From Spirogloea muscicola (Eukaryota > Streptophyta > Zygnematophyceae > Spirogloeales > Spirogloeaceae), in assembly GCA_009602725.1 (NCBI GenBank), contig WELB01000319.1, positions 45,161 to 73,382 of the forward strand: a stretch of 28,222 nucleotides of DNA, read 5' to 3'. The position numbers were made by a program, and so were the translations under genes. This document shows, piece by piece, positions 3-26,503 of the stretch (the stretch's first letter is position 1; each line of letters begins with the position of its first letter). Under the pieces are notes generated by a model. It was not told the origin of the DNA and made no database searches. It worked only from the letters and a program-made list of their open reading frames with translations.

Positions 3-367
3 GTGTCCCGCAGACGCGGCGAGCCAGCCGACTTCAACGCCGCGGGCTCGTGGGCTCAGGTATATCGGATGCGCCTCTCTGTATCCCTGCAGCGGTCCAT
101 GGCCCACGCTCTGCATCTGCGAGCTGGCCGTGCTCTCGCTGCGGGCTCTGGCTTTCGTCAGGGTGATAGCTTCCCGGCAGCTAGTCTGTCGGATCTGAGG
201 CTCCTCACTCGTACTTATTGAGTGATCCATCCTCCCCCTGTTTTACCATTGCATCCTCAGGCCCCTTCGTAGCTGCTCACCGCTCTTAGGCCCCTCTGAA
301 CCTTTGTGAATTCTTTTTGGGCTGGCTTTTCGCAGCCCTTGCCCCCATTGGGAGTGCCACTTCTTCT
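3..367 (+). mobile_element. Retroelement 3' fragment (ORF C-terminus plus 3' UTR)
   Basis: An open frame enters from the window edge and stops at 221. It encodes a tail containing AQVYRMRLSVSLQRSMAHAL and ends SDLRLLTRTY. The same tail, diverged, recurs at 945-1121, 13321-13430, 16137-16391, 24690-25040 and in several inverted copies, so this is a dispersed element and not a host gene. It is joined to about 145 bases of 3' UTR with a hairpin (GGGCTG at 319-324, CAGCCC at 333-338) and a terminal TTCTTCT at 361-367, after which the sequence is unrelated to the 13.5 kb copy. The C-terminal pattern matches the end of a reverse-transcriptase polyprotein carrying a restriction-like endonuclease (see 12056-12965). 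The assignment to a non-LTR element is inference from that longer copy. Confidence 0.7.
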
Positions 368-507
368 TTTCTGCACGGAAGCCAGGGGAGGGGGCCGAGG
401 TGGGCGCCCGTCCGCAGGCAGACGGTGGCCGCCAAGTGTCAATAGCTGCGGGGCCGGTTTACTTGCCAATGAGTCGGGTACAAGATTTCCCGCTAAGTTT
501 TCCCGCT

Positions 508-660
508 GAGTGATTTGTAGCTGCTTTGTTTCTGTGCGCTTGTTTTCCTTAGCGCTTCCCCTGGCCCCCTTCTCATACTCTGTTCAGTCTTTTTTGGGCT
601 GGCTTTTTTGGGCTGGCTTTTCCAGCCCCTATCCTCAATGGGCGAGCACTTTCTTCTAAG
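508..660 (+). mobile_element. Retroelement 3' tail only
   Basis: About 150 bases match the 3' UTR that follows the retroelement stop codon at 1121 (shared GTAGCTGCTT, TTAGCGCTTCCCCTGGCCCC and the GGGCGAGCACTT end). No coding part is attached. The hairpin half-site TTTTTTGGGCTGGC is duplicated in tandem here (597-603 and 610-616). The second copy pairs with CCAGCCC at 622-628. The copy ends in TTCTTCT near 657. Confidence 0.65.
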
Positions 661-944
661 TTTTGCCTTGTAGTTGGAGTCCGTGAGCCTCTCCGGCTGA
701 CTCCAGCCAATAGATTGCCAGTGTCCAGCCACTCGCTGGCTGCTGCGCAGGGTGCCTAACCCGGAGTGTGACTCGGTGTCAAACAAGGTGAAGACTGATA
801 GGACCACTACTTCGGACATCCTCATGGCCTCGCATATAGCCCTCCGTTTTGCACCATGGGTGCCTCTCTAGTGAAGCTCAGGTGTGCGGGGCGGCCAAAT
901 TTTGGAGCTCTGAGCTACAAACCTCTCCAGAGCATCTCAAAGGA

Positions 945-1260
945 GGCCTTTCGGGAAGGTAGTTTACCATATACGCCTGGCCGTCTTGCCGCAGAGGTCT
1001 GTTGCCCGCGCGCTGCACCTTTGTGCCGGCACAGCTCTCGCTGCTGCCTCTGGCTCTGGCCAGGGGAACCACTTCCAGGAGCCTAGCATCTCAGATCTTC
1101 GGCTGCTTAGCAGGGGTTACTGAGTGTTCCGTAGCTGCTTAAGTACTTTTTGTGCTTGTTTTTCTTAGCGCTTCCCCTGGCCCCCTTCTTATACTTTGTC
1201 TCTTCTTTTTTGGGCTGGCTTTTCCAGCCCCTATCCTCAATGGGCGAGCACTTATATCTC
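945..1260 (+). mobile_element. Retroelement 3' fragment (ORF C-terminus plus hairpin tail)
   Basis: One frame from about 1000 to the stop at 1119-1121 encodes SVARALHLCAGTALAAASGS and ends SDLRLLSRGY. This is the same C-terminus as the fragment at the window start but a diverged copy; upstream the frame is shifted. The 3' UTR follows directly, with the hairpin GGGCTGG (1212-1218) / CCAGCCC (1224-1230) and the GGGCGAGCACTT end near 1252. The TTCTTCT terminus is altered to TATATCTCTTC. It lies just beyond the 3' end of the ArfGAP gene, in convergent orientation. Confidence 0.65.
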
Positions 1261-1261
1261 T

Positions 1262-1695
1262 TCCGGGACTGTGGTCTTACTGCAGGTTCTCAACCTGCAA
1301 CGAGAACACAGACACTGAACTCCGTGCCCAGAGGCCCCGCCACTGATAGCCCTTCTCGCTGTCAGAAACATGTCGAGAACGCCTATAGGCTCTGACGACC
1401 AGACAAGGAAGCACTGCATGTACGAGAACTCAGGGCAGCGATAGCAGCAACAGCACGAGTCTATAAGAGCCCCCCGCAGAAAGCAACCGTTCCTACTCAC
1501 AGCAGCCTGACTGAAATTGCAGCAACTACTCTGTCAAGACCTACATAATGAAGAGTGCCGGCTCATCATCATCAGCTGCTCCTGCATTGTACTAACCTAT
1601 CCTGGTGGTGAAAGACCACAGTCTAGCTGTCCATAGCTGGCAAATAGTACGAGCACCAAGAGTGAAGAGCTCCTCTACGTCATGTATGCCCAAGC
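1262..1695. other. Probable 3' flank/3' UTR of the ArfGAP gene
   Basis: No reading frame or repeat that I can support lies here. It follows the ArfGAP stop codon (read on the - strand) and so probably holds its 3' UTR. I saw no AATAAA on the - strand. Confidence 0.35.
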
Positions 1696-4600
1696 CTAGC
1701 CGAATGGATTGCCTTGCAATGGAGGCTGCTGCGGCGCAGCATATGCGGGGGCTGCATGGAAAGACCCGCCTGGCAAGCTGCAATAACAAAGAGTGTGGTT
1801 AAGCTGCATCAGCACTGGTCAACAGATACTTATGGACGTGCTGCGTAGGATACCAAAGTCATGCTTTGTTCCATATCTGTGATTCTTGCTGCTACATATG
1901 CTCATTGCGTTGCTAGGACACTGTCACGAGAAATGGGACTCTCACGTGTTTGGTGGCGCTTGCATGGCTCCTGATTGTTGCACGTAACCTCCTGCACCAG
2001 AAGCAGCACATAGATGTGAGACCTCGAGCATATGGCAATGCTATTGATTGATAAATTAGACAAAAGTGCAAGAAAGGCTGTAGGAGCACCTGATTATACC
2101 ATTGCAACATCAAAAACAATGAGGTCAGAACCGAGTGATGTAAAGCAGGCAACTCACCAGGTGGGAGGTAAGCTACAGGGGGCTGGTGCGAGGGAAGATA
2201 AGTGGGAGGTAGAGTGCCCCATGAAACTGGGGTCAAAGTTGGCGGCTGAGTATAAGGTGGCAGAGCAGCTTGCACAGAGCCCATATTGGGAAACGGCTGT
2301 CATGCATGATGCACCCAACATGTGAGATACAAGCAAGATATGCATGAAGTACTGCTTATTCGGGCAGCCTATCTCCCTGACAAATGCAAATAGCTTGATT
2401 ATGCACAGTTAACTAAAGCTGGCTGACCATGAGAGCTTGTCTGCTAATGTGAAGTGGATTGGATAGCAACAGCACTGCAAGCTTCAGACATAAGATGAGA
2501 GATGTCAGCGAGGATCACAAGAGCTGCAACAGCCAAGTCAAAGCAGAATACTTACTGGCTGCACAACAGGATCAGAAGCAGGCCCTGGAGGGTCATCGAA
2601 TGGGTTCCTCGACTTGGGTGGCTGTGAAAAGGCTGGCATTGAGCCCTGCATGAGCAAGAGCACACATAGTCTTGGGAATCTGACAAGCATTCAATATCCC
2701 ATCTTCTGCAACATGAGTGCCACACATCGTACCGATATCCCAAGTAATCTTAATGCCCATAAACCAGCTATTCACTGGGCCATGAAGGTCAATGGACTCA
2801 CAGGGATCACTGAGGTGAAAGGGGCATATGGAGGGGGGGGTACTCCATAGAGCTGGCTGACGGCCACTGGCGGGTATATTACGCCAGGGACGACCGGCGG
2901 CATGAAGCTATCTGGCACAAAGAAATCCTGCAAAATGGGGGTATCACACGTGGTTATGCCTTCCACCCAGCAAGTCACGCGTCTCTGATTGGATGATGAT
3001 CAGCACTGCCCAAAAACGGCAGTGCTAAGAAAGTAATGGAAACTGGCACTTCGTGCTGAATGCAAGGACTTGGCAAACTACTTGTCTCAAATCTTACACC
3101 AAAGTGATTGTCAGTGACAGGCAAGTGGTGCAGCACCTCTGGACATACCTCTGGTATCTCTCTTCGTTCAGCAGAGACCTGCTTTGGCGTCTCCGCTGGT
3201 ACCAAAGAATCTGAGTCTCCAGAAACTACACCACCCTGCTGGTGTGATTGGCCAGAGGCAGCGGAAGCTTGCGGCTGCAGGTGTGCAGCCTGGGTGAATG
3301 TGTCCAATCGTTGCTGCTGCCCAGGCTCAGGTTGCTGCTGCTGGACTGCACCTGGCTGGTGCTGATCAAAGGGCTGCATCGGCTGCTGCTGCTGCTGCTG
3401 CTGCTGCTGTGTTGCTGCTGCCTGAGGTTGCTCTACAAGCCCTTGTGGTTGCGGTAACTGAGGAACAGGTTGCTGCTGGTGTTGTCCCTGTGTTTGTCCT
3501 GCAATATGTTGCTGTTGCAAATGTGGCTGCTCGTTCATATACCCCTGTTCTTGGAACTGCTGTTGAGGCTGCTGAGGAAACTGCACCTGTGAAACGGGTG
3601 TGGGCTGGAAAAATTGGGACTGTGGAGGCTGACTCTGTTGCTGGGAGGGCTGCCCACTGCCAAATTGCTCGGCTGGGGCACCAGAGTCCCCAAAGGCAAT
3701 CCACGCCTGCTGTTGCTGCTGCACGGGTGGCCGCTGTTGCGGCAGCAGCTGGGGCTGCTGTTGTTGCTGCTGCTGCTGCTGCTGCAGCTGCGGTTGTGGC
3801 TGCTGCTCCTGCTGTTGCTGCAGCTGTGGTGGCTGCTGTTGGAAAAAATACTGCTGCTGTGGTTGTCCCTGCATCTGCAGTGAGAAAGCCAAGCTGCTTA
3901 CATTAAGAGCTTAATTTTTCAGCATACAAGCCGTGTGCAACATGTCAAGTACTCAGCATACAACGTCAACAAGCATACAAGGATCCAACAAAAGGCACAG
4001 TGAAGGACCATAACTCAGACCATGCAGGCTCAATACGAAGTTGCTGACCACTTTCTTAGCCTATCAGCACTTCAATCATCTGTAATCACTGGCACATTCT
4101 TGCCTGGTATGGAAGAGGTAAGTGCGGCTGGCTAGGAGGAACACCAAACAAGCCGCCCATGCCTCCGGAAAGCGGGGCCAACTGAGCCTGTGCTGCCCAA
4201 GGAGCCATGGGGCCAAGCCCAGCTGGTGCTTGGAGAAAGGGAGCAGCAAATCCGGGCCCGGCAACTGGAGCCGCGCCAAAACCTGGGTTGCTGTCAAAGG
4301 TTGCCCAACTGGTCGTCGGCGGAGCTCCAAACTGGTCCCCACCAAGCTGCGGCCCAGGTGTGGTGGCCGTCGCTAGAGCAGCAAAGGGATCTGCAACTGG
4401 TTGTTGCTGCACACTCGTGGCTGTGCTCTCAGACTCGGCTGCGAAGTCTATGAGGCTGCCCGCAGTTTGGCGGTTGAGATTCTCGCTCTCTCGGTTTGAG
4501 CCGGTCACCTCGTTCTGGGTGGTGCTGTCTTTCCTACCCGGAACCTGCACCATAATCAGAAATCAGATGTAAAAGTTTGCGCCGGTTGAGGTAAGCTGAC

Positions 4601-7654: not shown

Positions 7655-7890
7655 GCCTCCCGGTCAATCTACCGTTCGACGAAAGACATAAATTGGCCTC
7701 TCCCAAAAGAGAGAAGGCGCGCGGGGCGCATGAATTGAAAGGGAGGCCAATTCAAGCCAATACATTGTTCATTCAAAAGGGGGCAAGGGCTGTGAACGAG
7801 AGAAGTGGCATCTCCCAACGGGGGGCAATGGCTGTGGCAAGCCAGCCCGAAAGCACTTGACAAGGTCCGAAGGGGCCCAAAAGCGCCATC
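7655..7890 (-). mobile_element. Retroelement tail fragment, RPARLL-type segment
   Basis: Read on the - strand, this stretch matches parts of the repeat at 23500-23680 (-) and 26320-26500 (+). It shares a GGCCTCC..TTTCA.TTCATGCGCCCC block that would read PPFxFMRPARLL, and hairpin-tail remnants (TTTCGGGCTGGCTTGCCACAGCC, in pieces). Two degenerate tail ends, with AGTGGCATCTCCC in place of AGTGCTCGCCC, are recognisable near 7803. It sits in the intergenic region between the divergent ArfGAP and methyltransferase genes. Confidence 0.5.
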
Positions 7891-8062: not shown

Positions 8063-8431
8063 TTGATCACAAGCACAAGCATCGGCCACAGCGGACCTTC
8101 GGTGTGCGTATGCGGCCCTGGTTGGAGTTTAAGAGTCAGTCGCTGTCTGCAAGTTGTCTCAAGCCGTGGACCTGCCGCAATGGCCCACACCGCCGCTGCC
8201 GCCGCCGTCGGCGGCGGCGGCGGTGGCTCGGTCCGCCTCGGCCGCCTGCAGCTGCCGCTGGAGCCCGTCGTGGACGCCTGCGAAGAGGTGGCCTGGCGGG
8301 CAGCCCTCGCTCGTCTCACAATCCTCAATCCCAGCTCGCAAAAGCAGAGATCCTTACTTCCCAGCTCACATTGCAGTGTGGCAGGCGAGCCGTCCTTCCA
8401 GCACGCTAAAAGAGCGGCGGCGGCGGCGGCT
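8063..8431 (+). other. Ala/Gly-rich open frame in phase with the methyltransferase start
   Basis: The frame is open and in phase with the methyltransferase exon 1. From ATG 8180 it encodes an Ala/Gly-rich stretch, then RLQLPLEPVVDACEEVAWRA, then an unconvincing Ser/Gln-rich link to the conserved domain. It could be an N-terminal extension such as a targeting region, a 5' UTR, or a separate short upstream exon. The methyltransferase fold is complete without it. I favour 5' UTR/promoter with moderate uncertainty. Confidence 0.3.
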
Positions 8432-10695
8432 ATGGTGGCGCAGGTGATGCTGCGGTGGGGCCTGCAGGACCCTCTGTCCCAGCGGCCCAACCGCTTCGTG
8501 GCCCAGGCGGCGCCACACCTGGCGCTCGATGCCGCCGGCCAGCACCTGCGCGTCCTCCAGGCGCCCTCGGCGCTGGTGCGAGCTTCCAGCATATAGCCCA
8601 AGCCCTGTCTAAACCCTATACCCTGAAGTGTAAATTCCGAACTTCTAAATCCCTGAACCCTCAGTTTTCTATAATCTTAAGCCCTAAAGCCTTCAAGCCG
8701 TCAAATACAAGCATACGACCGACTAGAAACAGCCCTGACCTTAGACCTTTAGACTCTAGTACTTGAATCTTACACCTTAGCCTCTTGGCAAACACCAGGT
8801 TCAGCCTGTGTGACAGCTTCGTCGCCGATGTCGGCGGTGGTTGTCTGGTGCAAAACAGCGTTGGCAATGGTCTTTGCACAAGTGTCTGTTTCACAGTGGT
8901 GGTGCCTGTGCCACAAAGTGTCTCTCCCACAGCAGCAGTGCATTTCCTGGCATCAGCACTTTCCCCTGTTGCGCTGCACAATCTGAGAACATTCGCTGTC
9001 CATCTGGTAACCAGGCTCTTACAGAAGCATCAATACTGCATAGGAATTGAAGTTGCAAGAAGATTTTGCAGAGAGATATAGCACCCGCCAGCTTAAGGTC
9101 AAATGTCGCATGTGTGCTGGATGCCTCTCCTCTTCCTCGAGGGGCTGACAACCTTATCCTCAATCTCAGACACAGTTGTGGCTGGTCCGAAATTACAAAA
9201 AGCCGCAACTAGAACATGACAGCTTGGACGTAAGTTGGTGCTGTATCGCGCTGTACTTACACATACTGCACCTTTCCTCTCAAGCTCGCATCAAGTACTC
9301 TGATGCACGCTCCATTTCATGGTTGGCAGATGAAGGCTGGTGTGACGGGCTCTGTCCTCTGGGACAGTGGCGTTATCCTAGCCAAATTCCTGGAGCATGC
9401 TGCAGACACAGGGGCGCTGAGCTTGAAGGGCGCCTCGGTGGTTGAGCTTGGGGCAGGCTGCGGACTCGTGGGGTGAGTAAGAAATGTCATAGTTTCATTG
9501 GAGCTAATGCTGTTCCCTTTGCAGTTGCTTGTCTATTGGAAAGAGTCACGGAGATCTGCCAATTTACCACTATCCATTGAGTACTATCCTTTAATTTAGC
9601 TCTGCGGTTTGGCCGGTCGGCTAGTCACAAGAGCACATTTCTGGGTATAGGGTTTGGTGTTTAGGGGTTTAGCAATTCAGGGATGCCAATCCATCAGACA
9701 TCGTTTAACAGCACCTGTTGTCTCTGGCGCCACAGCTGACAAGTCGCAGCAGCTGTGTGGCAGCCCTGCTGGGAGCTCGTGTGGTCCTGACTGACGTCTT
9801 CGGCCAGCTTGCGCTCCTGGAGAAGAACCTCAGGGAGAACATTCCCGAGCTGGTTGCCAGCGGCTACGCCACAGCCAGAGAGCTGACCTGGGGAGATGAA
9901 ATCGATGCCGACCTCGTATCGCCAGCTCCAGATTACGGTGAGGCAGGATGCAAGTCCATGTACTTGTCCATTACTCAATAGAAACAACAGTGATGGCAAC
10001 AGGAATACCTCAGCATTTGTAGCATTGAATCATTCAGCCTTGGCATGGAAGTTGAAGAAACAGAAACATGCTCCTATATTGCCACCATCGGTACCTGCAC
10101 CTGCACCAGCTTCTCTTCTTACTTGCTGTACTTTTTCTGTCAATGTGTCATTATTGAGTAATTGAATGCCCCCTCTTTATCCTGGCCAGCTAGCTGCTCA
10201 GTACAGGGGTGCATACCTTTTCTATATATGCAGTGGTTGCATCTGATGTCGTCTTCAGCCACGAGGCCGTAGGCAGCCTCGTTCACACACTGGAGGCACT
10301 TAGTAACGACGGAACGACCATCATCATCTCGGGGGAGCTCCGAGACCGTAAGTTCTCTGCAAGGACTTGAGATCTTCCTGGATCTTGCGTAGTGGCTTAC
10401 CTGACCTAAAAACGTCAAGCTATGAATCAAGGCTTGATCCTTTCACAGCAGATGTGTCAAGGTAGAATGGAAGCCACCCATGGTTTTGGACAGTTCTATC
10501 TAAACTTCATGATAGACCTTATCTGAGCGTCATGACACTTTGGCTTCTGCAGATGCTGTCTTACAATTATTCCTGGACAATGCTTTAGTGCACTTTGACA
10601 TTGGGAGGGTGGCAGAGACCCAGTTACATCCGGACTTCACAAGTTGCCGCATTGCTGCGTATGTGCTTCAATTGAGAGGTGCTTTAAAGAGCTAG
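8432..10695 (+). CDS. METTL21: METTL21-type protein-lysine methyltransferase, 5 exons
   Basis: Exons: 8432-8575, 9330-9472, 9753-9937, 10234-10347, 10553-10695. Phases agree and the sum is 729 nt (242 residues plus stop), close to the usual 220-240 of the family. Residues 35-48 give the opening strand (AGQHLRVLQ). Next come GVTGSVLWDSG (52-62), SAM motif I VVELGAGCGLVG (85-96), post-I ARVVLTD (104-110), ELTWGD, ASDVVFSHEAV (160-170, the family's D-x-x-Y/F motif with F) and a C-terminal GRVAETQLHPDF. This order is that of seven-beta-strand SAM-dependent methyltransferases of the METTL21 group, which methylate lysines on chaperones and other cytosolic proteins. The substrate here is unknown, and the sequence resembles the land-plant member. 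All donors are GT. The open frame continues upstream in phase (Ala/Gly-rich, to about 8063), so a longer N-terminus starting at ATG 8180 cannot be excluded. An optional in-frame 60-base exon at 9170-9229 is possible but not needed by the family alignment. Confidence 0.88.
8600..8775 (+). repeat. Degenerate telomere-like (CCCTAAA) sequence in intron 1
   Basis: The start of methyltransferase intron 1 is a series of imperfect CCCTAAA-like units (AAGCCC, CTAAACCCTATACCCTGAA, AATCCCTGAACCCTCAG, AAGCCCTAAAGCC and so on). The spacing is irregular, as in an old interstitial telomeric tract. Confidence 0.55.
9641..9673 (-). repeat. Degenerate telomere-like motif in intron 2
   Basis: TATAGGGTTTGG and TTTAGGGGTTTAG give about three imperfect units of the TTTAGGG repeat within methyltransferase intron 2. 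Confidence 0.5.
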
Positions 10696-11720
10696 AGTTT
10701 ACTTGCCCTGAAGGGATTATATAAGGTAATGCGTGCGCTGTCATCACTCAAGCCAGAAGCTCAGAAGCGCTTCAGCTCATAAGCAGGGCAAAGAGGGCTC
10801 TGATTTGAGATGTAAATATGAAGGTACTGTCCCATCCAGTTGCTTACCTGTTACCTGATTGCCCATTCAGCCCTTTCTTTCTGAAGACCATGAGTTGTGG
10901 ACGTGAATGCTGTTGTCATATCTTGCCTACAGAGGGTGTTCAATCTTGCTTCTCAGCTTCAAGAAGTTCTCCTTTTTACCACCTCATCATATCTTCGCCC
11001 TTGCATTGCAAGCATCTACCTCAGACAAAGCAATGCCCACTACGTTCACATGTCATTGAGGCCTTCTTAGCCAAATGGCACCAAGCCCTCCTACTATGTA
11101 TCTTCATTTTTGGTGTGATCTTTACATCAGCTGAATTGTCAAAGGCTCAATGACAATAGCACATTGATAAGAAAACTTCAGAGACGATGTCAAGTGCACC
11201 ATGAGCACTGTGAGATGAAAGGCCTAGAGCTGCTGGAGACATGAAAGCTACAGAGATTATTCTGCTTCTGTAGAAGAGACCCACCTACGGCCAGGCCTGT
11301 CATGGCAAGAGCATACCACCTCATGGGCATACACCGGATGTTTGTTTATACTTGACACTCCGGAGGTGATCAAGTGCAGTGCAGGGCTACAATGAAGTGC
11401 CATGGAGGAACTTAGGTGGCGTCCTTGCTGACTGGCACCTTTGCAGCGCTCTTGTTTATTCTCCAAGTTAGGCTCCTAAGCAGCCACTGGCACGCATGAG
11501 AATCTAGCTCAACTCTTTTCTTGCTTGCACCTCTTTTGTCAAAGGGACTGTCCTTCTTGTCAGCCCACATGCCATTGCCTGTGTCATGGCAGCTCCGCCA
11601 GTGCCGTGGACTTAGGAGGCGCTCACAGCCATCCTCTTACTACGAGCCGCAGCTTGTCTACTTGTCGCTTAGTGACCCTCTCCTTCCATTACCTGCAGTG
11701 AGGCACGCCCTTCGGAAACG
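10696..11720. other. No gene recognised
   Basis: This kilobase after the methyltransferase stop has only short open frames with no recognisable family and no long repeats. Its first part should hold the methyltransferase 3' UTR; I saw no AATAAA, only a TGTAAATATG near 10811. Confidence 0.35.
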
Positions 11721-11725
11721 AAGTG

Positions 11726-11790
11726 CTCGCCCATAGAGAAGAGGAGCTGGCAATGCCAGCCCAAAAAGAATGGACAATGTCCACAGCCAA
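11726..11790 (-). mobile_element. Retroelement hairpin tail, inverted
   Basis: AAGTGCTCGCCCATAGAGAA begins an inverted copy of the 3' tail. The hairpin is GAGCTGGC/GCCAGCCC (11744-11762), followed by AAAAAGAATGGACAATGTCC, the reverse of the usual GGACATTGTCCATTCTTTTT side. There is no coding part. Confidence 0.55.
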
Positions 11791-12055
11791 AGAAAGAAAG
11801 AGGTGCCGCTTGCAAGAGCTCACTTCTTAGAAAACAGCCACGTTCTTTTCAATTGAGCCTCTCCTACTCGTCCACTTTTCCTCTTCGAACTTTCTTTTTC
11901 TGCCAAATCACAGCCATCGCCCTCTATTGGAAGATTGTTGCCTCCCTTTCTCCCAGCTTTTCCTTGTCCCTTCTTCCGGCAGGCCAGCGAGCGGCGGCCA
12001 GGTCTGCCAGGCTTCTATGCTGCCTGCTCCTTGCCCAGGAATTTCGCATAGGCTG

Positions 12056-13320: not shown

Positions 13321-13578
13321 CTCTGTCTGCGAGCTGGCCGTGCTCTCGCTGCGGGCTCTGGCTTTCGTCAGGGTGATAGCTTCCCAGCAGCTAGTCTGTC
13401 GGATCTGAGGCTCCTCACTCGTACTTATTGAGTGATCCATCCTCCCCCCTGTTTTACCATTGCATCCTCAGGCCCCTTTGTAGCTGCTCACCGCTCTTAG
13501 GCCCCTCTGAACCTTTGTGAATTCTTTTTGGGCTGGCTTTTCGCAGCCCTTGCCCCCATTGGGAGTGCCACTTCTTCT
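13321..13578 (+). mobile_element. Retroelement 3' fragment, near-identical to the copy at 117-367
   Basis: Aligning this with 117-367 by eye shows two substitutions and one single-base length change in about 250 bases. It contains the ORF end (stop near 13431), the 3' UTR, the hairpin (GGGCTG 13530-13535 / CAGCCC 13544-13549) and a TTCTTCT end at 13572-13578. Both copies diverge completely just after TTCTTCT, which places the element's 3' end there. Confidence 0.75.
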
Positions 13579-14623
13579 GTCTCCACGCTGCCAGCCACTT
13601 GACCTCTGGAGTTGACCGGGGCCAGCAAACCGCACTTTCCGGCCAACTTGCCGACGCGCCGTGGCAGCAAGCTGCCAGGTACCCTTTTCGACGCCAACTG
13701 CGCACAGCCGGCCACGTGGCGGGCTCAGGTGAGGTTGCCCGCCCTTGCGCGCCGAGCTCCGAGATTCACGGCAATATGGCACGTGGGGCGCGCGCCGAGC
13801 CCGCGCTCGTGCCACGCGGTCCGCAGCTGATCGCCGCCCCGGGCGGTCGTCGGGGGAGCCGGGGAGCGTCGGCCGGCCGTCGATTCTGGGGCGCCCTGGC
13901 GGACGGTGGCCGCCGGCCGGCCGACGATTGTGGGGGGGGATCCCCGCCGACGGTGCGGGGATACCGCGCCGCGGCGGCGCCACATGGGGAGCTTCTGATC
14001 AATTTGGATGCGGCCCAGTGGGGCGGGCCGTTGGAGGCGACGTGGGCGGCGCCTTTGGGGGACGGCGGGAAGGGGAGGGCCCCCCCCCCGCCGGTCAAGC
14101 GGGGCCGCGGGGCGTCCCACGTAGGGAACCTTCGGCTTTCGGGCCCCCCGGATCCGCCTTTCCCAGACCCCTCCTCCCTCTCTCCTCTCCCCTCACTCTT
14201 CCCCTCTCTCTCCCTCTCTNTCCCCTCTCTCTCCCCCTCTCCCGATCCCCTGGTCTTCTCCTGCCCTCCCTCCGCCATAAACCGGCATAAAGTAGAGTAC
14301 CCACTTCCCGGAAAAGCCACACACGCCCCCCCTCCTCCGCAGCGCCGCCCACAACGCGCCCACCCGGCCCCCGCATCCTCCTCGCTCCCCGCTCTCGTCG
14401 CAGGCTGCCCTCGCCGCCGCCGTTGCCGCCGTTGCCAAAGGCGTCACCGCTGCCTAGCTGCTGGGAGCGCCGCTTGCTGTTGAGACCTTGGGGCTTCTCT
14501 GGGCGCCGGCGGCCGCAAATAGCGGGAAGGACCATCTACCTGTGCACTGAGGAGGGTACCTCCCCGAGGCCGAGCTGCCAAGCAGGGGCCTTGAAGAAAG
14601 GGGCCGGACGCAAGTAGTCAGCC
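13579..14623. promoter_or_regulatory. GC-rich upstream region with CT-rich tract, probable promoter/5' UTR of the 14624 gene
   Basis: The long overlapping open frames on both strands look like GC-rich shadow frames: Arg, Pro and Gly composition and no recognisable motif. A long C/T tract at about 14161-14250 (with an ambiguous base at 14220) resembles the pyrimidine patches near plant transcription starts. A weak TATA-like GCATAAAGTAG lies at about 14286, roughly 330 bases before the ATG at 14624. Confidence 0.4.
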
Positions 14624-16060: not shown

Positions 16061-16136
16061 TGCATACAAACAACGCGCCTCAAGAGTTGCACGAGAAGTT
16101 ACTGTTACTGTTGAATTCATCTATTGAAAGGGATAC

Positions 16137-16510
16137 TTGCTCCACCGCCTGGCGCAGCGTGCAGCGGCCCGCCGCCTCGGGCAGCAGGGCGAGCAGCCCG
16201 GCTTCAACGTAGCCGGGTCCCTCGCTCAAGTTTTCCGTATGCGTTTGGCCGTCTCGATGCAGCGGTCCCTCGCCTTCGCTGTTCACTTGCGCGCAGGCCG
16301 AGCTTTGGCGGCGGCCTCCGGCTTCCGTCAGGGCGACGTCTTTCCGCCATCTAGCTTCTCGGACCTGCATCTCCTGTCTAGAGGTTACTGAGCGTACCCT
16401 GGCTGATGTCTTAGTCCTAGTCGTTCGCACTCAGGCTCCCTCAGACTTTGTCCATTCTTTTGGGCCGGCCTTTCCCAGCCACCAGTCAATCTGGCCGCGC
16501 TTCCTTTGCT
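16137..16510 (+). mobile_element. Retroelement 3' fragment (ORF C-terminus plus tail), right-facing arm of an inverted pair
   Basis: The frame from 16137 to the stop at 16389-16391 encodes GFNVAGSLAQVFRMRLAVSM, then AGRALAAASGFRQGDVFPPS and SDLHLLSRGY. It has the best-preserved copy of this C-terminus in the window, with no internal stop. The tail follows (GCTGATGTCTTAGTCCTAGT), with the hairpin-like GGGCCGGCCTTTCCCAGCC (16462-16480) and a different 3' end, CAATCTGGCCGCGCTT. It is therefore a distinct subfamily from the TTCTTCT-ended copies. Confidence 0.7.
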
Positions 16511-17045
16511 CCTTGTACATTCTTGAGATGGCTCCCTGTACAAGTTTGACTATGACCATGATAATAATTTCTTTGTGCAAGAGGAACTTTTTGCACGCTA
16601 GAGCTTAAGGGCGGCAGCAAAGCACAGAAATAAAGCGGCACCCATGCCTGTCGCAAGCCCGAAATATAGCATGAGTCAACACCTTCACACAGAGAGAGTG
16701 CATGAATGTGCATGAATGAAAGAGAGGCCAGATTACGCCTATGCACTTTTCAGGCAAAAGCTAGTGCATAGGATGGGACTACACAAAGCAAAAGCCCTAT
16801 GCTGAGAGGGATGAAGGTAACATTGCAATAGCCGGCTGAAAAATGACTTCAGTACCTACCAGTAGCACAAGCAGTTCGACAGGCTAAGTTGGGGAGCAGC
16901 CACGGAATGGAATGCAAGTGTGCCCAAGCTGCCCTATTGAGTACGGCGGCGGACGTCTGTTAGCTAAGTCAGATGCTGGAGGAGGGAGAACCACTATTTG
17001 AAGGACCATTCCACAGTAGCAGCCCTGACTGTTCATAGCGTTCGG
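16511..17045. other. Spacer between inverted retroelement tails; no gene recognised
   Basis: This is the loop between the inverted tails at 16363-16506 and 17050-17195. It has only short frames; no conserved motif was seen. Confidence 0.35.
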
Positions 17046-17206
17046 ATAGAAAGAAAGCGCGGCCAGATTGACTGGTGGCTGGGAAAGGCCAGCCCAAAAG
17101 AATGGACAAGGTCTGAGGGAGCTTGAGTGCGAACGACTAGGACTAAGACATCAGCCAGGGAACGCTCAGTAACCTCTAGACAGGAGATGCAGATCCGAGT
17201 AGCTGG
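17046..17206 (-). mobile_element. Retroelement tail, left-facing arm of the inverted pair
   Basis: Read on the - strand this is about 96% identical by eye to 16363-16506: it encodes SDLHLLSRGY, then the stop, TGATGTCTTAGTCCTAGTCG, and the hairpin GGGCTGGCC/GGCTGGG. Upstream of SYSDLHL the similarity stops abruptly and joins the MGRK-type sequence (see 17166-17336). Confidence 0.7.
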
Positions 17207-17336
17207 CGTTCGGATAGGAGTGGTGTCTTCGAGAGTGGTCCTTGTAGTACCTCTCCTCAATGTGCTGCGTGTGGGTTGTTGCCCAGCCAGGCACAGGCGG
17301 CGTGGGCCGCGCCTTTTCCTCGCCCTTCCGGCCCAT
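17166..17336 (-). pseudogene. MGRK-type reading frame fused to a retroelement C-terminus
   Basis: A 56-residue frame starts at ATG 17336 (ACCACCATGGGCC). It encodes MGRKGEEKARPTPPVPGWAT and a His/Tyr/Arg-rich middle (HIEERYYKDHSRRHHSYPN), and then reads without interruption into the retroelement end SYSDLHLLSRGY. The first 44 residues are unrelated to the retroelement copies elsewhere. The region around the ATG is repeated at 18585-18700. I do not recognise the protein. It may be the 5' end of a host gene truncated by insertion, or a chimeric gene; no evidence of expression is available. Confidence 0.4.
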
Positions 17337-17489: not shown

Positions 17490-17735
17490 GTCTGCAGCGA
17501 GCTCAGGCTCATGCGTTGCATCAGAAAGGTGGTCGAGCCTTAGCTGGTAGCTCAAGAGCTTGTCGATTGCCGTCCGGTATTCGGGCATCAGTTAGCGACC
17601 TCTATGTGCTGACTCGTGGTTAGTAGTAGGTCAGCTTAGCAGCAGGCGGTGCACATTTGTCAATGTGCTTGCCTTTGTACTTGGCCACACAGGCCCTTCA
17701 TCTCTTAATACACACGCTTTTCTTTCTTATGATGT
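17490..17735 (+). mobile_element. Retroelement 3' fragment (endonuclease-type C-terminus plus 3' UTR)
   Basis: The frame reads LQRAQAHALHQKGGRALAGS and ends SDLYVLTRG with a stop at 17620-17622. It is homologous to the end of the broken element at 12840-12962, and the shared 3' UTR motif GTGCTTGCCTTTGTACTTGG follows at about 17664. A CCCTAAA doublet lies directly after it. Confidence 0.65.
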
Positions 17736-17740: not shown

Positions 17741-17756
17741 ACCCTAAACCCTAAAC
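17741..17756 (+). repeat. Interstitial telomere-like repeat (two units)
   Basis: ACCCTAAACCCTAAAC is two perfect units of the plant-type telomere repeat, placed just after the retroelement 3' UTR ending near 17735. Confidence 0.7.
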
Positions 17757-18535: not shown

Positions 18536-18536
18536 A

Positions 18537-18865: not shown

Positions 18866-21800
18866 TCATTCCTCATCTGAGTCTGCAAATTTGATAGAAT
18901 GACTCTGCAGATCAATCGCCCCTCCTCGGTATGACCCACGCTTCTTCTTCGTCTTCTCGTGCCGGAAGTTCCTGAGATGCAGAAGCAAAGCAGAGCCGCA
19001 CAAATGAGCTTCTTGTAAAGCAGGCTAGCAAAGCAGCTCAGGGTAGTTGCTAGCCAAGCCACATGGCTAGAGAGCTGACAGACAAGTCACTTAACTAGAG
19101 AGCTATTGGACCAAGTTAAGATTGAGGTCCTCCAAAGCATCACAGAAAGAAGAGCCAGTCAAGTGATGGCAGCATAATTGTTGGGGATCGAGTAACTTTT
19201 GATGCTGCTCAATGCACCAGACATGGTTTTGTGAAGCTGAAAATTTTGTCCGAGTAAGGCAGTAAGGTCAGGTCCTTACTTCCCCCTCACTGTACCAAGG
19301 ACTTCCTGCGCTTTCGCTCCCCAGCCAACATCGGCGCCTCCCTGCTTGTGCCAGCACGCATCCTTGCCATTGGCCTCACAGACTATCAAACTAAGAACCC
19401 AGACTGTGCGCTAGTACAAGTCTTTGATGTGTTGGTGTAATGACGTGATATTTTAATGTTATATTGATAATTGAGGGGTGATGCACTCAAGTCTCATGGA
19501 TAAGCACAGGTGTATTGCGACTCACAACTTGGCTTCAATGACCAACTTTCAGCTGGATTAGGTCTTCTACTTTGCAATGCATATTGTGGAAGTAAATAAA
19601 AAGTCAAATGACGCAATCAGCAGTTGCTCCTCTTGCCTTGGCCCAGTAGGAATTGTCCTTCAATCGGGGATCCTTGAACTCGACCTGCACAGAAATAAAC
19701 ACGGCTGGCTGTTTGTCCGTTCTCTTTCCTCTCCATGACCAGTAATCTGGTCTCTCACATGAATGATAATTTCAGCTAACCACAATTTAGAAGGCATCTG
19801 AGGCCTCTCCTCTGGGAGGTAGGAAAAGCGCCACTCCTGGTAGCTCACTTGCCATGCGACATCAATCATTATGCAGGATTCTGCAGCAATGCACGTGCAG
19901 CATGGAATACTGATGTGGCTGATAACAATTTCTCGGTATGACATCAATTTGCCTGAATATCAATGCATACGCGCAGGGCAGCAAGCAGCAACGCACTTGT
20001 GTGGGGTCCACTCGCTGAAAGGCTCTCGCGGCTGTCCCCTGAGAGACGACTCAGCGTTGGCCAGTCAGACGGTGCAGAGCCAGGGTTTACAGCGTGAGGC
20101 CTAACTCTACCCTATACCCTAAATCAAGGGTATGCTGCTCGTCCCATAAGGCCGTCATGACCCAGCAAAAGTAAGAGAAGAGGACAACCATGTGAATGTT
20201 CTCATCCTCCCTATTGGTTGGTAGATGCAACCATTGCGCTATTGCACTGACAATGCCACGTGCCCGGCTTTTGGCTTCAGACTGGGATTGTGGTGAAGAT
20301 GCCAGCTTGCCTTTGCTTCGCTGCCACGCCCATTCTGCTGCACCGCTTTTGCCAAGGGTTTGTCATCAGGGGCCGTCTCTGACTTGGGCTTCAGCTCGGT
20401 TGCTGCTGAGCGCTTGCGCCCCAAGCCGGCCTGCTTCTCCCTGCTAGCGCATTCTTCCCGCCCCTCTGTTGCTTTCTTCCGACGGCCCTTGGTGGCTTTT
20501 TCTTGCTGCTGCTGCTGCTGCTCTTCCTTCTCCTCATCCTCATCATTGTCCTCCTTGTCTTCCGCATCACCGCTAGTGACGCCGTTGGTTCCAGAGCTCG
20601 TGGGGGCAGGCGCGCTGGCAGCAGCCGTAGCCTCCTCGTCCTCCCCATAGCTGGCGCTCTCCTCCTCGTCATTGTCACCAGCATCACCTTCAGCAGCAGC
20701 AGCAGCAGCAGCGAAGCCAGCAGTAGTATCCTCATTGCCTTCGCTAGGACTCTCCTCATCCTCCTCGTCGCTGTCGTCGTCGCTGTCATCCCCCTGTGCA
20801 GCAACAGGCTCTGTGGCAGCAGCCGTGGCCTCCTCATTCTCCTCCTCCTCGTCCTCCTCCTCCTCCTCCACCTCCTCCTCCTCCGCCTCCTCCTCCTCCT
20901 CTTCCTCCTCCTCCTCCTCCTCCTCTTCTACAGCACTGGCAACTGGGGATGCCTTGCTCTCGACCACCGCTTGCGGGTCACCGTCATCATCATCATCCTC
21001 TTCCTCGTCTTCGTCCAAGCCCTCGTCCTTGGCGGCGACGCCACCTCCATTGACCACGCCGCCATCCTCCTCATCGCTGTCATCCTCCTCGTCACTGTCG
21101 CTGTCGTCGCCTTCCAACTCCTCCAGCAGACTCATAGCGCTGGCCTGCACAGCCGCCTCCTCTTTGGGGTCCTCGTCGCTATCGTCCTCGTCCTCGTCCT
21201 CGTCCTCGTCTTTGTCCTCGTCCTCGCTGTTCTGATCGCCAACATTTTCCTCGTTCACATCGCCGTCCTCCTCGACCTCGTCATCCTCGTCTTCGTCGCC
21301 CTCGTCCTCCTCTGGCTCCGCCATCGCTGCAGCTTTCCGCTTTGCTGGCACCTTCCCGTTGGCCACAACACCCATCTTCCCACCGGCTTGCCCCTTCCGC
21401 CTTTTGGCAGCAGGCCCATCTGCCTCTACTGGGGCCTCCTGGCCCTGCTTCCGCTGTCCCTGCAATCTGCACGAGGAGAAGTCCTTCATGCAGGCAAGTC
21501 AGCAGCTTGTGCTGATAGTGAGGGGCTCCTCATCGGAAGCTGGAGTACATGGTAAATATTATATTCAAGTAGGGGTCTGACCTTCCAGGTGCTAACACAT
21601 CTAAGACTGAAGGTTTCCAAAAAGGCAATTTTCATAAGTGGCAAACCATATTGGATAATTGTACCTACATACTGAATTATACTGAGAGCGAGAGCCCAAA
21701 CCACCTTTAAGCCTAATTGCTGACTTTAGAACAGCGGATGCAGATGAGATTTCTGGATGTCTGTCCAGACTAATACATCTGTTGATATGCCTAGCCTCCG

Positions 21801-22440: not shown

Positions 22441-22690
22441 CGTATCCCCGAGAAGAAGTGGCTCTCCCAAAAGGTGGCAAGGGCTGTAACAAAAGGAAGC
22501 GCGGCCAGATTGACTGGTGGCTGGGAAAGGCCAGCCCAAAGGAATGGACAAGGTCTCAAGGAGCCGGAGTACGAAGGACTAGGACTAAGACATCAGCCAG
22601 GGAACGCTCAGAAACCTCTAGTCAGGAGATGCAAGTCTGAGTAGCCAGCCGGCGGAAAGACGTCGCCCTGTAAACAGCCAGCCCGAAAAG
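22441..22690 (-). mobile_element. Retroelement tail (GGCCGCGC-ended subfamily) with ORF end
   Basis: Read on the - strand: GDVFPP..YSDLHLLTRGF, stop, TGATGTCTTAGTCCTAGTCC, the hairpin GGGCTGGCC/GGCTGGG (22517-22538) and CAATCTGGCCGCGCTTCC. It is a third member of the subfamily at 16137 and 17046. A degenerate TTCTTCT-type end (GAAGAAGTGGCTCTCCC) adjoins at 22452. The copy lies directly upstream of the SRP40 gene start. Confidence 0.6.
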
Positions 22691-22846: not shown

Positions 22847-22882
22847 CTCCGACTTGCTGCTGCTCACCCGTGGTTACCAAGC
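22847..22882 (+). mobile_element. Short retroelement ORF-end remnant
   Basis: TACTCCGACTTGCTGCTGCT reads YSDLLLL and continues TRGYQ, matching the element's C-terminus SDLRLLSRGY with the stop codon lost. The copy is about 36 bases long and recognisable only by comparison. Confidence 0.4.
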
Positions 22883-22923: not shown

Positions 22924-22944
22924 CTAAACCCTAAACCCTAAACC
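22924..22944 (+). repeat. Interstitial telomere-like repeat (three units)
   Basis: Three consecutive plant-type units (CTAAACC, CTAAACC, CTAAACC) without mismatch. This is the longest perfect telomeric tract in the window, close to the retroelement remnant at 22847. Confidence 0.8.
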
Positions 22945-23215: not shown

Positions 23216-23441
23216 ACTTCGCTTGCCTCTTTGGAATGCATAGAAGCTTGCCCAACAATTTCTTTTGCTTTATCCAACTCCTGCCAAAGATCATTCCGTT
23301 CAGCTTTGAGTCGCTGGACCTCCGCCGACAGCACTTCCATGGCAGAGATGACCGCCTGATTGCGTGCCATGTCAACACCGTCTCCCGGGTCCGGTTCTTT
23401 CTCATCCCCGACCGGGTCGGTTTCCGCCTCCAAGAGAAGAA
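23205..23441 (-). CDS. Coiled-coil fragment between two retroelement pieces
   Basis: Inside a longer frame (23020-23670, -), about 75 residues look like genuine protein: an acidic lead (DPVGDEKEPDPGDG), then MARNQAVISAMEVLSAEVQR and LKAERNDLWQELDKAKEIVG, a heptad pattern (L/V/L spaced 3-4) typical of a coiled coil. Upstream on the same strand is a complete retroelement 3' tail (23441-23670), and downstream it joins the retroelement C-terminus in a shifted frame. It resembles the N-terminal coiled coils of Gag-like/ORF1 proteins, so it may be the start of an internally deleted element. A captured host fragment is the alternative. It is probably not a functional gene. Confidence 0.4.
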   Translation of the reverse strand, partial: FFSWRRKPTRSGMRKNRTRETVLTWHAIRRSSLPWKCCRRRSSDSKLNGMIFGRSWIKQKKLLGKLLCIPKRQAKCEP

Positions 23442-23690
23442 AGTGCTCGCCCATTGAGAATAGGGGCTGGAATAGCCAGCCCAAAAAAGAATCAACAAAG
23501 GACGAGAAGGGGACCAAGAGCGCCCCTCTGCCACGTTCACCGGCGCCCAACAGCTGCGGCCCTTTAGGACCAGTGGACTCCCCCACGATAGCTGCGAGAG
23601 GGACATCCAGCCGCTCGTTCGTAGAGAGAAGGCGCGCGGGGCGCATGAAATGAAATGGAGGCAAATTCAAGCCGATACATTTTTCAAGCA
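23436..23690 (-). mobile_element. Retroelement 3' UTR with RPARLL segment and hairpin tail
   Basis: From about 23690 downward on the - strand: TTGCCTCCATTTCATTTCAT, GCGCCCCGCGCGCC, a spacer, then TTTTTTGGGCTGGC with the hairpin GGGGCTGG/GCCAGCCC (23463-23482), GGGCGAGCACTTTCTTCT and the 3' end at about 23436. The first part is shared with 7655-7890 and 26320-26400, which extends the known tail of this family to about 250 bases. Confidence 0.6.
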
Positions 23691-24230: not shown

Positions 24231-24420
24231 TTCGGACCTTCTTGTTCCTTTTCGGGCTGGCTGTTCACAGACTTTGCCACCTTTGGTAGAGGCACTTTCT
24301 TCTGAAGGGGGCGAGGACTGGTGATTAGCCAGCCCAGAAAGAATGAAAATGCTCGCCCACAGAAGATAGGGAAGAAAGGGCAAGGTCCAAAAGGCGGCAA
24401 GGCCGTAAAGAAGAAAGCTA
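24230..24420. mobile_element. Two retroelement tails in convergent orientation
   Basis: A + strand tail (TTTTCGGGCTGGCTGTTCAC at about 24247 to GAGGCACTTTCTTCT at about 24304) faces a - strand tail (TTAGCCAGCCCAGAAAGAAT, AATGCTCGCCCACAGAAGAT). The two 3' ends lie within a few tens of bases of each other. Confidence 0.5.
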
Positions 24421-24581: not shown

Positions 24582-25090
24582 ATGCTTACAACTTCCTACC
24601 TGCTGACTTCAGATTACTCTCGTTGTACAGGGCCAACGAGAGGGTGGGGCAAAGAAGAAAGGGTGGGGCTCCCCCACCACGACGCAATTGACCGCTTTAA
24701 TGCACGGCTCTCTGCCTCAAAGGCTGGCCATGCAGCTGCGAACGCCGCTCGTGGCAATGCCGCTGACTACGTGGACCACCCGGAAGGGACGTATTTGTCC
24801 CATTGGCCACCGAGTTGCACGAGGCTTTCGGGTCTCGATGGCAAGACCTGCTGGCCCGGCTTGCGGGAGTCGCTGTGGTCCGCAGGTGAGGGTAAGCAGT
24901 CCGACTTCAATGCCGTTGGCTCGCTCGCTGAGGTCTTTCGCCTGCGCCTGTCCAAATTCACTCCAGCGGTCCATGGCCCACGCCTTGCATCTGCCTGCTG
25001 GCCGTGCTCCAGCTGCAGCCTCTGGCTTTTCCGGCTGCTAGTATTTCTAAATTGCGGCTCCTCACTTGAGGTTGCAAGTGATCATCCTAC
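24582..25090 (+). pseudogene. Retroelement ORF fragment, frameshifted
   Basis: The frame 24582-25115 carries AIDRFNARLSASKAGHAAAN and then FNAVGSLAEVFRLRLS, the same C-terminal domain as 3-221 and 16137. After an insertion at about 24950 the match continues in the +1 frame as SLQRSMAHALHLPAGRAPAA, ending AAASGFSGC. The SDLRLLSRGY end is still recognisable as DNA (AAATTGCGGCTCCTCACTTG) but broken. It extends about 200 bases further 5' than the other fragments of this subfamily and may help to rebuild its upstream sequence. Confidence 0.55.
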
Positions 25091-25149: not shown

Positions 25150-25200
25150 ATGAAATTAATGCTGGACGGCCTGAGTGGCCACATACAAAGGCAAGCATAT
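25150..25200 (-). mobile_element. Inverted copy of the endonuclease-type 3' UTR
   Basis: The reverse complement reads TGTCAATATGCTTGCCTTTG followed by TATGTGGCCACTCAGGCC, matching the sequence after the stop codons at 12962 and 17622. No coding part is attached. Confidence 0.5.
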
Positions 25201-25204
25201 TGAC

Positions 25205-25560
25205 AGATGCAAGGGGGCGGGGGCTTGTGAAAGCCAGCCCGCAAAGAAAGTTCTCCAAAAAGGGGCGATGGCTGTGATGGCCAGCCCAAACACAGCACTT
25301 CCAAGGATGATAAGGTCCGAAGGGGCCGGAAAGCGCAAAACCACACAGAGAAACAGCTCTTCCGATGTAAGGCAGTGGCCGTGAGAGGCCAGCCCACCCC
25401 ACACAGAAAAGTCAGTCCCAACAAGGTACAAGAAGCGCTTCCAGGCGTGGACAATGGAGTGTGTATTGAGTGATGGAGGGGCCTGAGTGGCAAGCACAGG
25501 GGTACAGAAGGAAAAGCTCGCCCATAGAAGAGAGGGGCTGGCAGAAGCCAGCCAAAAAAG
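25205..25560 (-). repeat. Array of diverged retroelement tail hairpins in one orientation
   Basis: Four hairpin half-sites follow one another in the same orientation: AAAGCCAGCCCGCAAAG (about 25229), GATGGCTGTGATGGCCAGCCC (about 25267), CAGTGGCCGTGAGAGGCCAGCCC (about 25374) and GGGGCTGGCAGAAGCCAGCC (25534-25553). Only the last has a full AGCTCGCCCATAGAAGAGAG end. They probably arose by repeated insertion of short 3' tails next to one another, or by tandem duplication followed by drift. Confidence 0.5.
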
Positions 25561-25569
25561 AATGGACAA

Positions 25570-25960
25570 ACGGTAGAGAGGGCTGCGCAACTACCAGAGC
25601 ACGGAGCACTCCGGGCAGGGGCCACCTGGCGGCCCCCACCCACTCCAGGATTCCGCCTGGCCAGCACGTGCGGCCAGCCTGGCCACCGTGGCCCAGGTTG
25701 ACATGCTTTCCACCTGGCACCCTGGTTGCGGCACCCCACGCCCTTATTGGTCAAGGTGCCACCTGCCGTCCAGCAGAGGCGGCCGGCAGCTTATCTCCCG
25801 GCTCCACAACATTGCCGCCCAGGGTGCCAGCTGTACGGCAGTCCTTGTCGGCTTGGCAGGCGCCAAGCGTGACTTAATGGCGACCTTTGACCGCCGGTTA
25901 GGCGGCCCTAACTCGCCGCTTGACTAATGTTGTGACCTGGGTTAGCGCTTTTGAAAGATC
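25570..25960 (+). other. GC-rich stretch with weak open frames, no gene recognised
   Basis: Two overlapping frames (25470-25877 and 25688-25927) are open. The second ends VLVGLAGAKRDLMATFDRRL plus GGPNSPLD, which looks more protein-like than its surroundings, but I do not recognise it and there is no full-length counterpart. It may be an internal fragment of one of the elements. Confidence 0.25.
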
Positions 25961-25984
25961 TCGGGTCGATGGCGTTTAGATCAC

Positions 25985-26225
25985 GGGCGACCTCTCCGAC
26001 CTGCGGCTGCTTAGCAGGGGTTACTGATGTAGCTGCTTTGTTTCTCTGTGTGCTTGTTTTTCTTAGCGCTTCCCCTGGCCCCCTTCTCGTACTCTGTTCA
26101 TTCTTTTTTGGGCTGGCTTTCCCAGCCCAAAAAAAAAGCCCTTCTTTTTTTCCAGCCCCTATCCTCAATGGGCGAGCACTTTCTTCTATAAGCCAGTTCA
26201 ATGGGCGAGCACTTTCTTCTTCTTT
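25985..26225 (+). mobile_element. Retroelement ORF end plus 3' tail, with a partly duplicated end
   Basis: CTCTCCGACCTGCGGCTGCT reads LSDLRLL and continues SRGY with a TGA stop at about 26024. The 3' UTR (TTAGCGCTTCCCCTGGCCCC) follows, then the hairpin GGGCTGG (26110-26116) / CCAGCCC (26122-26128), a poly-A-like insertion and GGGCGAGCACTTTCTTCT. The last 28 bases are then repeated (CAATGGGCGAGCACTTTCTT) at about 26199-26219. Confidence 0.65.
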
Positions 26226-26319
26226 GTCCGGCCCCCCGCCCTCTGCCCTGAACCCAGTCCAGGAACCTAATTTTGACCATCCGCTGTAGTCTCTTGCAGA
26301 GCAGTGTGATTTTGGCGCT

Positions 26320-26503
26320 TTTTAGCCCTTTGCATATTGGCCTCCATTTCATTTCATTTCGCCCCGCTCGCCTCCCCCCCCCATTGTCCACTTCTTGGGC
26401 TGGCTTTTGCAGCACCCGCCCCCTTCTCGTACTCTGTTCATTCTTTTTCGGGCTGGTTGTTCCAGCCCCTATTCTCAATGGGCGAGCACTGTCTTCTGTT
26501 TAC
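26320..26503 (+). mobile_element. Retroelement 3' UTR with RPARLL segment and hairpin tail
   Basis: ATTGGCCTCCATTTCATTTC matches 23620-23680 (-). A truncated hairpin tail (TTGGGCTGGCTTTTGCAGC, near 26397) is followed by a full one: TTCGGGCTGG (26450-26456) / CCAGCCC (26462-26468), TATTCTCAATGGGCGAGCAC and TGTCTTCT. It ends about 130 bases before the stop codon of the convergent Myb/SANT gene. Confidence 0.6.

Follow-up and report, generated by a model that had tools for sequence, protein, structure and literature searches.

Hairpin-bearing tails as probable 3' termini of a non-LTR retrotransposon lineage in the streptophyte alga Spirogloea muscicola

A tail of about 70 nt, built around the hairpin GGGCTGG/CCAGCCC, recurs on both strands of a 28,222-nt stretch of the Spirogloea muscicola genome (assembly GCA_009602725.1, contig WELB01000319.1, positions 45,161 to 73,382 of the forward strand; hereafter the window, whose own numbering is used throughout). 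We conclude that these tails are very probably the 3' termini of a lineage of retrotransposons lacking long terminal repeats (non-LTR), of which at least three families (A, B and C) are present here, and that tails without coding sequence are the shortest truncations of such elements. The conclusion rests on the linkage of tails to the C-terminus of one open reading frame (ORF), on copies that share a 3' end and differ in their start points, on target-site duplications (TSDs) and on one copy nested in the tail of another, which together form the pattern left by target-primed reverse transcription of a non-LTR element. To our knowledge, the choice of RNA by non-LTR reverse transcriptases is understood in detail for few elements, mostly animal. 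Tails that are constrained while the adjoining untranslated region (UTR) drifts beyond recognition offer a clean algal test set for tail recognition, and they illustrate that short coding-free copies need not be short interspersed elements (SINEs).

In the mechanism we propose, the element RNA would end in a module of about 70 nt comprising a T-run, a near-invariant GGGCTGG arm, a loop, a CAGCC-type 3' arm and an end near CTTTCTT. The encoded reverse transcriptase would bind this module and, in target-primed reverse transcription, start the cDNA at the end of the module on a nicked target. Synthesis would often halt early and leave 5'-truncated copies, the shortest of which would be the coding-free tails.

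Tails, reading-frame ends and insertion sites

Tails were sought through near-matches to two short motifs, after which an alignment of 14 tails served to build a covariance model and a simple sequence profile. Five instances of the pattern GGGCTGG-N2..14-CCAGCCC are present in the window, against 0.00 expected from 100 shuffles. The covariance model returned 15 strong matches on both strands (48.6-80.7 bits), plus 18 of lower score when hits up to E 10 are admitted, while the profile gave 28 window matches at E<0.05, some being pieces of one tail; both counts are partly circular, as 14 of the 15 strong matches are training tails and only the rearranged tail 26105-26187 is not. On the reversed window the same profile had no match below 0.05, its best E being 0.27. 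A preliminary description of this DNA, made from its letters alone, had reported a dozen or more copies on both strands, and this is borne out: the nine sites it named (319, 610, 1212, 11744(-), 13530, 23463(-), 25535(-), 26110 and 26450) all fall on strong tails.

The strong tails sort into three types, C (n=7), A (n=5) and B (n=3), the letters A to F being labels coined in this analysis. Family C ends in CTATYCTCAATGGGCGAGCACTTTCTTCT, as already described, or in a variant of it; an exact CTATYCTCAATGGGCGAGCA end is confined to 610, 1212, 26148, 26450 and 23482(-); 25554(-) and 11762(-) carry variants of it, and all seven sites belong to family C. In family A the remainder of the tail ends in TTGCCCCCATTGGGAGTGCCACTTCTTCT and similar sequences, the copies at 319 and 13530 having CAGCCC as 3' arm followed by TTGCCCCCATTGGGAGTGCCACTTCTTCT. 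Family B (16462, 17095(-) and 22537(-)), which the earlier list lacked, ends in CCACCAGTCAATCTGGCCGCGCTTTC and similar sequences. The full layout first given for all tails thus holds for family C, or seven of the 15, but not for A and B. Most copies terminate close to CTTTCTT(CT) or its counterpart in the family concerned. Of the 14 aligned rows, 12 have GGGCTGG as 5' arm, and the loop is variable.

Fragments of a single ORF C-terminus, approximately LQRSxAxALHLRAGRALAAASGxRQGxxFPPxSxSDLxLLTRGY-stop, occur at 14 places in the window, a count that includes two short matches (22848-22877 and 25992-26024) and leaves out three weak ones (8232-8285, 25655-25684 and 27489-27596; E 0.017-0.037). This C-terminus immediately precedes seven of the 15 strong tails (299, 1191, 13510, 16443 and 26105 on the plus strand, 17047 and 22489 on the minus strand), with the hairpin beginning 71-99 nt past the stop codon. 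In family A, the C-terminus at 3-221(+), ending SDLRLLTRTY-stop, is paired with the tail 299-369(+) (hairpin at 319; 80.7 bits), and a second copy, 13325-13579(+), is truncated within the C-terminus, the segment 13321-13587 being 97% identical to 109-377 in a self-comparison of the window. Family C is represented by a C-terminus at 962-1123(+) with the tail 1191-1259(+) (hairpin at 1212; 77.5 bits), and by a copy at 25992-26187(+) that joins an ORF end (25992-26027) to a rearranged tail (50.1 bits); family B includes a copy at 16128-16510(+), with C-terminus 16128-16391 and tail 16443-16510. For three C-termini no tail was recognised, namely 23198-23027(-), which is family C-like (84% to 971-1126), the decayed region 24675-25066(+), and 22848-22877(+); a further one, 24547-24453(-), has a partial tail only (24 bits). 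The remaining eight strong tails have no coding sequence upstream (575, 24234 and 26429 on the plus strand; 7800, 11715, 23435, 25240 and 25506 on the minus strand).

Start points differ among copies that share the 3' end, and several copies are bounded by direct repeats. TSDs were assessed by comparing direct repeats at the homology boundary with those at random boundaries for 12 copies (10 hairpin tails and two copies of a further repeat, type E, described below), and repeats of at least 6 bp were found at six. The clearest are the 12-bp repeats CTATCCGAACGC (17206-17217 and 17038-17049; uncorrected P 0.0025) on either side of the 5'-truncated family B copy 17050-17205(-), designated 17095, and the 9-bp repeats CTAAGTTTT (493-501 and 656-664; uncorrected P 0.008) flanking the family C copy 502-655(+) at 610 (71.5 bits). 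Because the latter starts about 5 nt before the stop codon, we regard it as an extreme 5' truncation. Weaker candidates, again with uncorrected P values, accompany 13530 (TCTGTCT, 7 bp, P 0.026), 22537 (TTACAG, 6 bp, P 0.083), the E copy 7771 (6 bp, P 0.11), and 23482 (CTCTTGG at 23520, 7 bp, P 0.056), a family C tail of about 82 nt without coding sequence at 23435-23516(-) (80.6 bits), for which an alternative 9-bp repeat lies 600 nt upstream. Of the 12 copies, two thus have a clear TSD, four a weaker candidate and six none. A wider search for exact repeats of at least 8 bp within 1500 nt of 21 tail ends returned, beyond 17095 and 610, repeats of 8-9 bp at several ends, whose distances or offsets fit no copy and which we do not count. 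The target sequence directly following tails 610 and 17095, as well as the weaker 23482, begins with CT (tail ends 656, 17049 and 23436), possibly a preference in cleavage or priming.

One family B copy, 22490-22667(-), the bearer of the TTACAG candidate, splits a family A tail inside its hairpin loop. The A flanks (about 22697-22668 and 22483-22451) score 15.2 and 16.3 bits apart and 38.8 bits when joined, restoring a perfect 6-bp stem GGGCTG/CAGCCC. Elsewhere, two tails in opposite orientation abut at their ends, a minus-strand remnant at 24305-24388 and the plus-strand tail portion 24254-24304. Together with the ORF linkage and the TSDs, the shared 3' end and the nested copy support the original assignment of these sequences to non-LTR 3' ends.

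What lies farther upstream in the ORF gives a lead, and only that, to the enzymology of the elements. A frameshifted remnant at 12052-12868(+), upstream of the C-terminus of a type D repeat (see below), carries a CCHC-like knuckle (12295-12345) with the spacing CX2CX8HX3C, one residue short of CX2-3CX7-8HX4C, and in another frame the stretch LD..VDVVVIE..KLQHY, which we likened by eye to the restriction-like endonuclease (RLE) of R2-type long interspersed elements (LINEs). RLE-encoding LINEs are described as having a CX2-3CX7-8HX4C knuckle upstream of the endonuclease, itself a variant of PD-(D/E)XK with KX2KY (PMC5678591, in excerpt). The endonuclease-like stretch had no NCBIfam or Pfam match above cut-off and none in PDB, and a single-sequence structure prediction of the piece was poor (mean pLDDT, a per-residue confidence measure, 40.4) and was not used. 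The elements may carry an RLE.

Constraint and pairing of the tail

That the tail is under constraint is indicated by a piecewise comparison of one representative each of families A, B and C. The last 153 nt of coding sequence are alignable between families (65-70% identity, z 14-17), as is the tail (76-81%, z 6-12), whereas the 51-77 nt between stop codon and tail are not (z 0.6, 2.0 and 2.4; z 0.3 and 0.8 for two more pairs with the copy at 26110). Raw identities of 56-70% over the 46-51 columns of this interior are at the level of freely aligned short unrelated pieces. Within one family the same interior gives z 14-24, so that it is long enough to test. The tail, alignable next to a 3' UTR that is not, must therefore be constrained, and most likely serves as the recognition signal of the element's own reverse transcriptase, an assignment made by analogy with stringent-type LINEs (PMC3747384, in excerpt). 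The same role had been proposed at the outset, and it stands as probable.

As to the form of the signal, standard pairs make up 86.7% of the cells in the 7-bp stem of the 14 aligned tails, and shifting the partner by 1-3 columns lowers this to 65.3% or less. Column shuffles nonetheless reach 87.4% pairing (500 of 500), since nearly every row has GGGCTGG as its 5' arm, and the stem breaks at its outermost pair in six rows and at its innermost in five. The claim that stems stay paired is accordingly correct as to the proportion of paired cells, but the pairing is no better than in shuffles and the terminal pairs do break. When single tails are folded, the minimum-energy structure contains the named hairpin, in place or slightly shifted, in seven of the 14 (all six family C tails folded and one of B), and for three of the six C tails the fold is much more stable than in shuffles (z -6.83 for 25506-25574(-), -3.11 for 11715-11782(-), and -4.26). 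In four of the five A tails folded, the GGGCTGG arm pairs with AGCC or GCCA plus GCCC further down. Family C has in addition a second, outer helix enclosing the hairpin, which the preliminary description missed, formed by TTTGTCCAT with ATGGGCGAG or similar sequences; across the seven tails, 87.1% of its cells are paired. Examples are TTGTCCAT/ATGGGCGA in 11715-11782(-) and GTTTGTCCAT/ATGGGCGAGC around the hairpin GGCTGGC/GCCAGCC in 25506-25574(-).

Two copies are rearranged at the hairpin. At 26095-26150(+), in the copy at 26110, a perfect 13-bp snap-back palindrome, TTTTTTGGGCTGG/CCAGCCCAAAAAA, is centred on the tail hairpin and followed by further tail fragments, and looks like the product of fold-back copying; within the family C copy 502-655(+), the 14-nt sequence TTTTTTGGGCTGGC is duplicated in tandem (590-603 and 604-617). 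Stalling or fold-back of a reverse transcriptase at the stem would explain both.

Several results weigh against the conclusions drawn so far. The window yielded no recognisable reverse transcriptase, 5' end or full-length element, the last being among the things that the preliminary description proposed to look for; the scanned ORF pieces gave no Pfam or NCBIfam match above cut-off, no reverse transcriptase was matched among 10 window proteins scanned with Pfam, only C-terminal ORF pieces being recognised, and neither an apurinic-type endonuclease (APE) nor RNase H was seen in the window. Long terminal repeats, which a non-LTR element would lack, were not noticed in the repeat listings of the window, in which a full-length copy is absent. 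Protein searches of the viral_contigs and genome_contigs collections yielded no confirmed outside relative. TSDs are absent at six of the 12 copies tested, these being the family C tails 26418-26498(+) (26450; 72.2 bits), 25506-25574(-) (25554; 73.3 bits) and 11715-11782(-) (11762; 70.7 bits), the family A tails 7800-7868(-) (7848; 51.2 bits) and 24234-24304(+) (24254; 60 bits), and the E copy 23686; multiplied by 12, only the P value of the 12-bp repeat stays below 0.05. Covariation, which had been put forward as a check, was not seen: none of the seven stem pairs shows a two-sided change on 14 tails (468 of 500 shuffles reach the covariation score), the RNAalifold consensus keeps five pairs, none with a two-sided change, and none of 17 pairs in the seven family C tails shows one, the tests having little power because the 5' arm is nearly invariant. 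In all five A tails and two of the three B tails the same arm pairs preferentially elsewhere, and nine of the 14 tails fold with z above -1.1 (range +0.39 to -6.83).

These observations leave room for a different view of the hairpin, in which it is not read as structure at all: GGGCTGGC and the rest would be kept as linear sequence, a protein site or 3' processing signal, with the 3' arm incidental or only occasional. The lack of compensatory change beside a 5' arm fixed in 12 of 14 rows, and the failure of the named hairpin to be the minimum-energy fold in seven of 14 tails, speak for this view. Set against it are the drop in pairing when the arms are slid, the outer helix of family C and the low fold z (below -3) of three of its six folded tails, and the location of the palindrome and of the 14-nt duplication at the hairpin. 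We consider conservation as linear sequence possible, though not probable.

If instead structure rather than sequence were read by the reverse transcriptase, the tail may be a two-helix 3' signal in which the partner of GGGCTGG depends on the family (CCAGCCC in C; AGCC or GCCA plus GCCC in A), with the GGGCGAGC outer helix closing it in C, and in which the stem also traps the enzyme, so that palindromes and duplications like those at 26110 and 590-617 arise and become the source of new tail variants. We put this forward as a speculative model, more doubtful than not.

Coding-free copies and other repeats

The eight coding-free tails might alternatively be a SINE family with its own promoter and head and a tail borrowed from the LINE, as in SINEX of Chlamydomonas; the lack of coding sequence directly upstream of eight of the 15 strong tails and the published occurrence of green algal SINEs with LINE tails (PMC3747384, in excerpt) would suit such an origin. 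In the 700 nt above these tails, however, the stretches that blastn matches between them are other tails or stand at varying distances, and the one pair near register (575 and 25240, the latter being the family A tail 25240-25309(-), 48.6 bits; 236 and 225 nt upstream) reflects another tail in both. No common head was found in register above the eight; ARAGORN found no tRNA in the window and Rfam gave no matches, A and B boxes not having been scanned separately. The E repeat was considered as a head and rejected: it precedes two tails, by 126 and 55 nt, and follows a third, and two of its copies share an end point of their own. The copy at 610, moreover, begins about 5 nt before the stop codon beside its 9-bp TSD. 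The SINE-like partner initially suspected thus did not materialise in this window and is improbable, though a SINE might still occur elsewhere in the genome, while extreme 5' truncation, the other possibility then named, is supported by copy 610 and by the missing common head.

Debris of a single segmental duplication or tandem array, suggested by the clustering of copies at 24.2-26.5 kb and 0.3-1.3 kb, is very hard to credit, since copies lie on both strands, have differing 5' ends and TSDs, include one tail split by another copy and, in self-comparison of the window, mostly share no flanks past the element boundaries; the objection of one long segmental duplication raised at first does not apply.

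Also present in the window are two repeat types whose 3' ends differ from these (D and E), as well as a diverged copy with a hairpin (F). Type D is found near 13,000, 17,660 and 25,200 (12831-13035(+), 17492-17700(+) and 25168-25209(-)); two of its copies have an ORF C-terminus of the same kind as above, followed by a different tail, AATGTGCTTGCCTTTGTACTTGGCCACACAGGCC, that ends in a small GGCC hairpin. Type E is a 64-bp repeat at 7708-7771(-), 23623-23686(-) and about 26338-26375(+), with two copies 92% identical and the end GCGCGCCTTCTCTCT common to two; it could represent the 3' terminus of a separate element. One E copy is perhaps inserted in a family A-like tail, the case for copy 7771 being weak, with a partial tail that scores 9.8 bits rising to no more than 14.2 bits when the flanks are joined. 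Copy F, at 28038-28222(-), consists of a C-terminus (28222-28112) and a diverged hairpin GGCTG/CAGCC, and matches the covariance model weakly (16.5 bits). Apart from these repeats, the window contains short interstitial CCCTAAA/TTTAGGG-like repeats, as in plant-type telomeres (9650-9690, 17742-17756 and 22925-22944), and extended repetitive reading frames rich in alanine, acidic residues or glutamine that coincide with triplet-repeat runs (3298-3906, 20239-21489 and 26634-27452). The CCCTAAA-type repeats, an intron-like gene structure and the composition of the window suggest a green algal host.

Comparison with known retrotransposons

In UnaL2, of the L2 clade, and in R2, a 3' RNA structure is recognised by the element's own reverse transcriptase, and these serve as the model mechanism. 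The recognition we propose for the tails described here is drawn from them by analogy. The exact tail patterns matched nothing in viral_contigs; a 19-base tail pattern matched six contigs of prokaryote metagenome-assembled genomes, none with a tail beyond the pattern, which we take as chance or bacterial sequence. A keyword search of the open-access literature found no title on these particular tails, an absence that means little.

In the order of a knuckle and then an endonuclease-like stretch at the C-terminus, the ORF remnant resembles Utopia, R2, R4, NeSL, HERO and CRE, LINEs with an RLE (PMC5678591 and PMC4640811, both in excerpt). The elements described here differ from them in having no single fixed target, the TSD-flanked insertions lying in unlike sequence and one copy in another tail.

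Among elements of green algae, Dualen/RandI offers a parallel by description. Dualen, which encodes both APE and RLE (PMC4640811, in excerpt), occurs in all core-Reinhardtinia species studied (PMC8226300, in excerpt), and 3' repeats other than poly(A) are reported as (CTATTT)n among RandI and (CTTT)n in SINEX-2 (PMC3747384, in excerpt). The probable host group, the 3' repeats and possibly the CCHC knuckle with LD..VDVVVIE..KLQHY, should that stretch be an RLE as in Dualen, are points of similarity. Against these, reverse transcriptase, APE and RNase H were not seen in the window, and the knuckle here is CX2CX8HX3C; the likeness is by description only.

The tail itself can be compared with the stringent-type ends of plants. 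L1 elements of the LINE1-1_ZM group and the SINEs ZmSINE2 and ZmSINE3 share a conserved 3' end with a putative hairpin while the rest diverges, and plant stringent-type ends have a conserved CGAG 3' of the stem (PMC3747384, in excerpt). In the plant elements, as that source describes them, stem letters vary with compensatory changes, whereas here the 5' arm is near-invariant, the loop varies and no such changes occur; and, unlike the case of ZmSINE2 and ZmSINE3, a SINE partner was not seen in the window. Family C nevertheless has CGAG in GGGCGAGC, about 15-20 nt past the stem, and the tails described here, like those of stringent-type LINEs, are conserved beyond the neighbouring non-coding sequence (z 6-12 versus 0.3-2.4).

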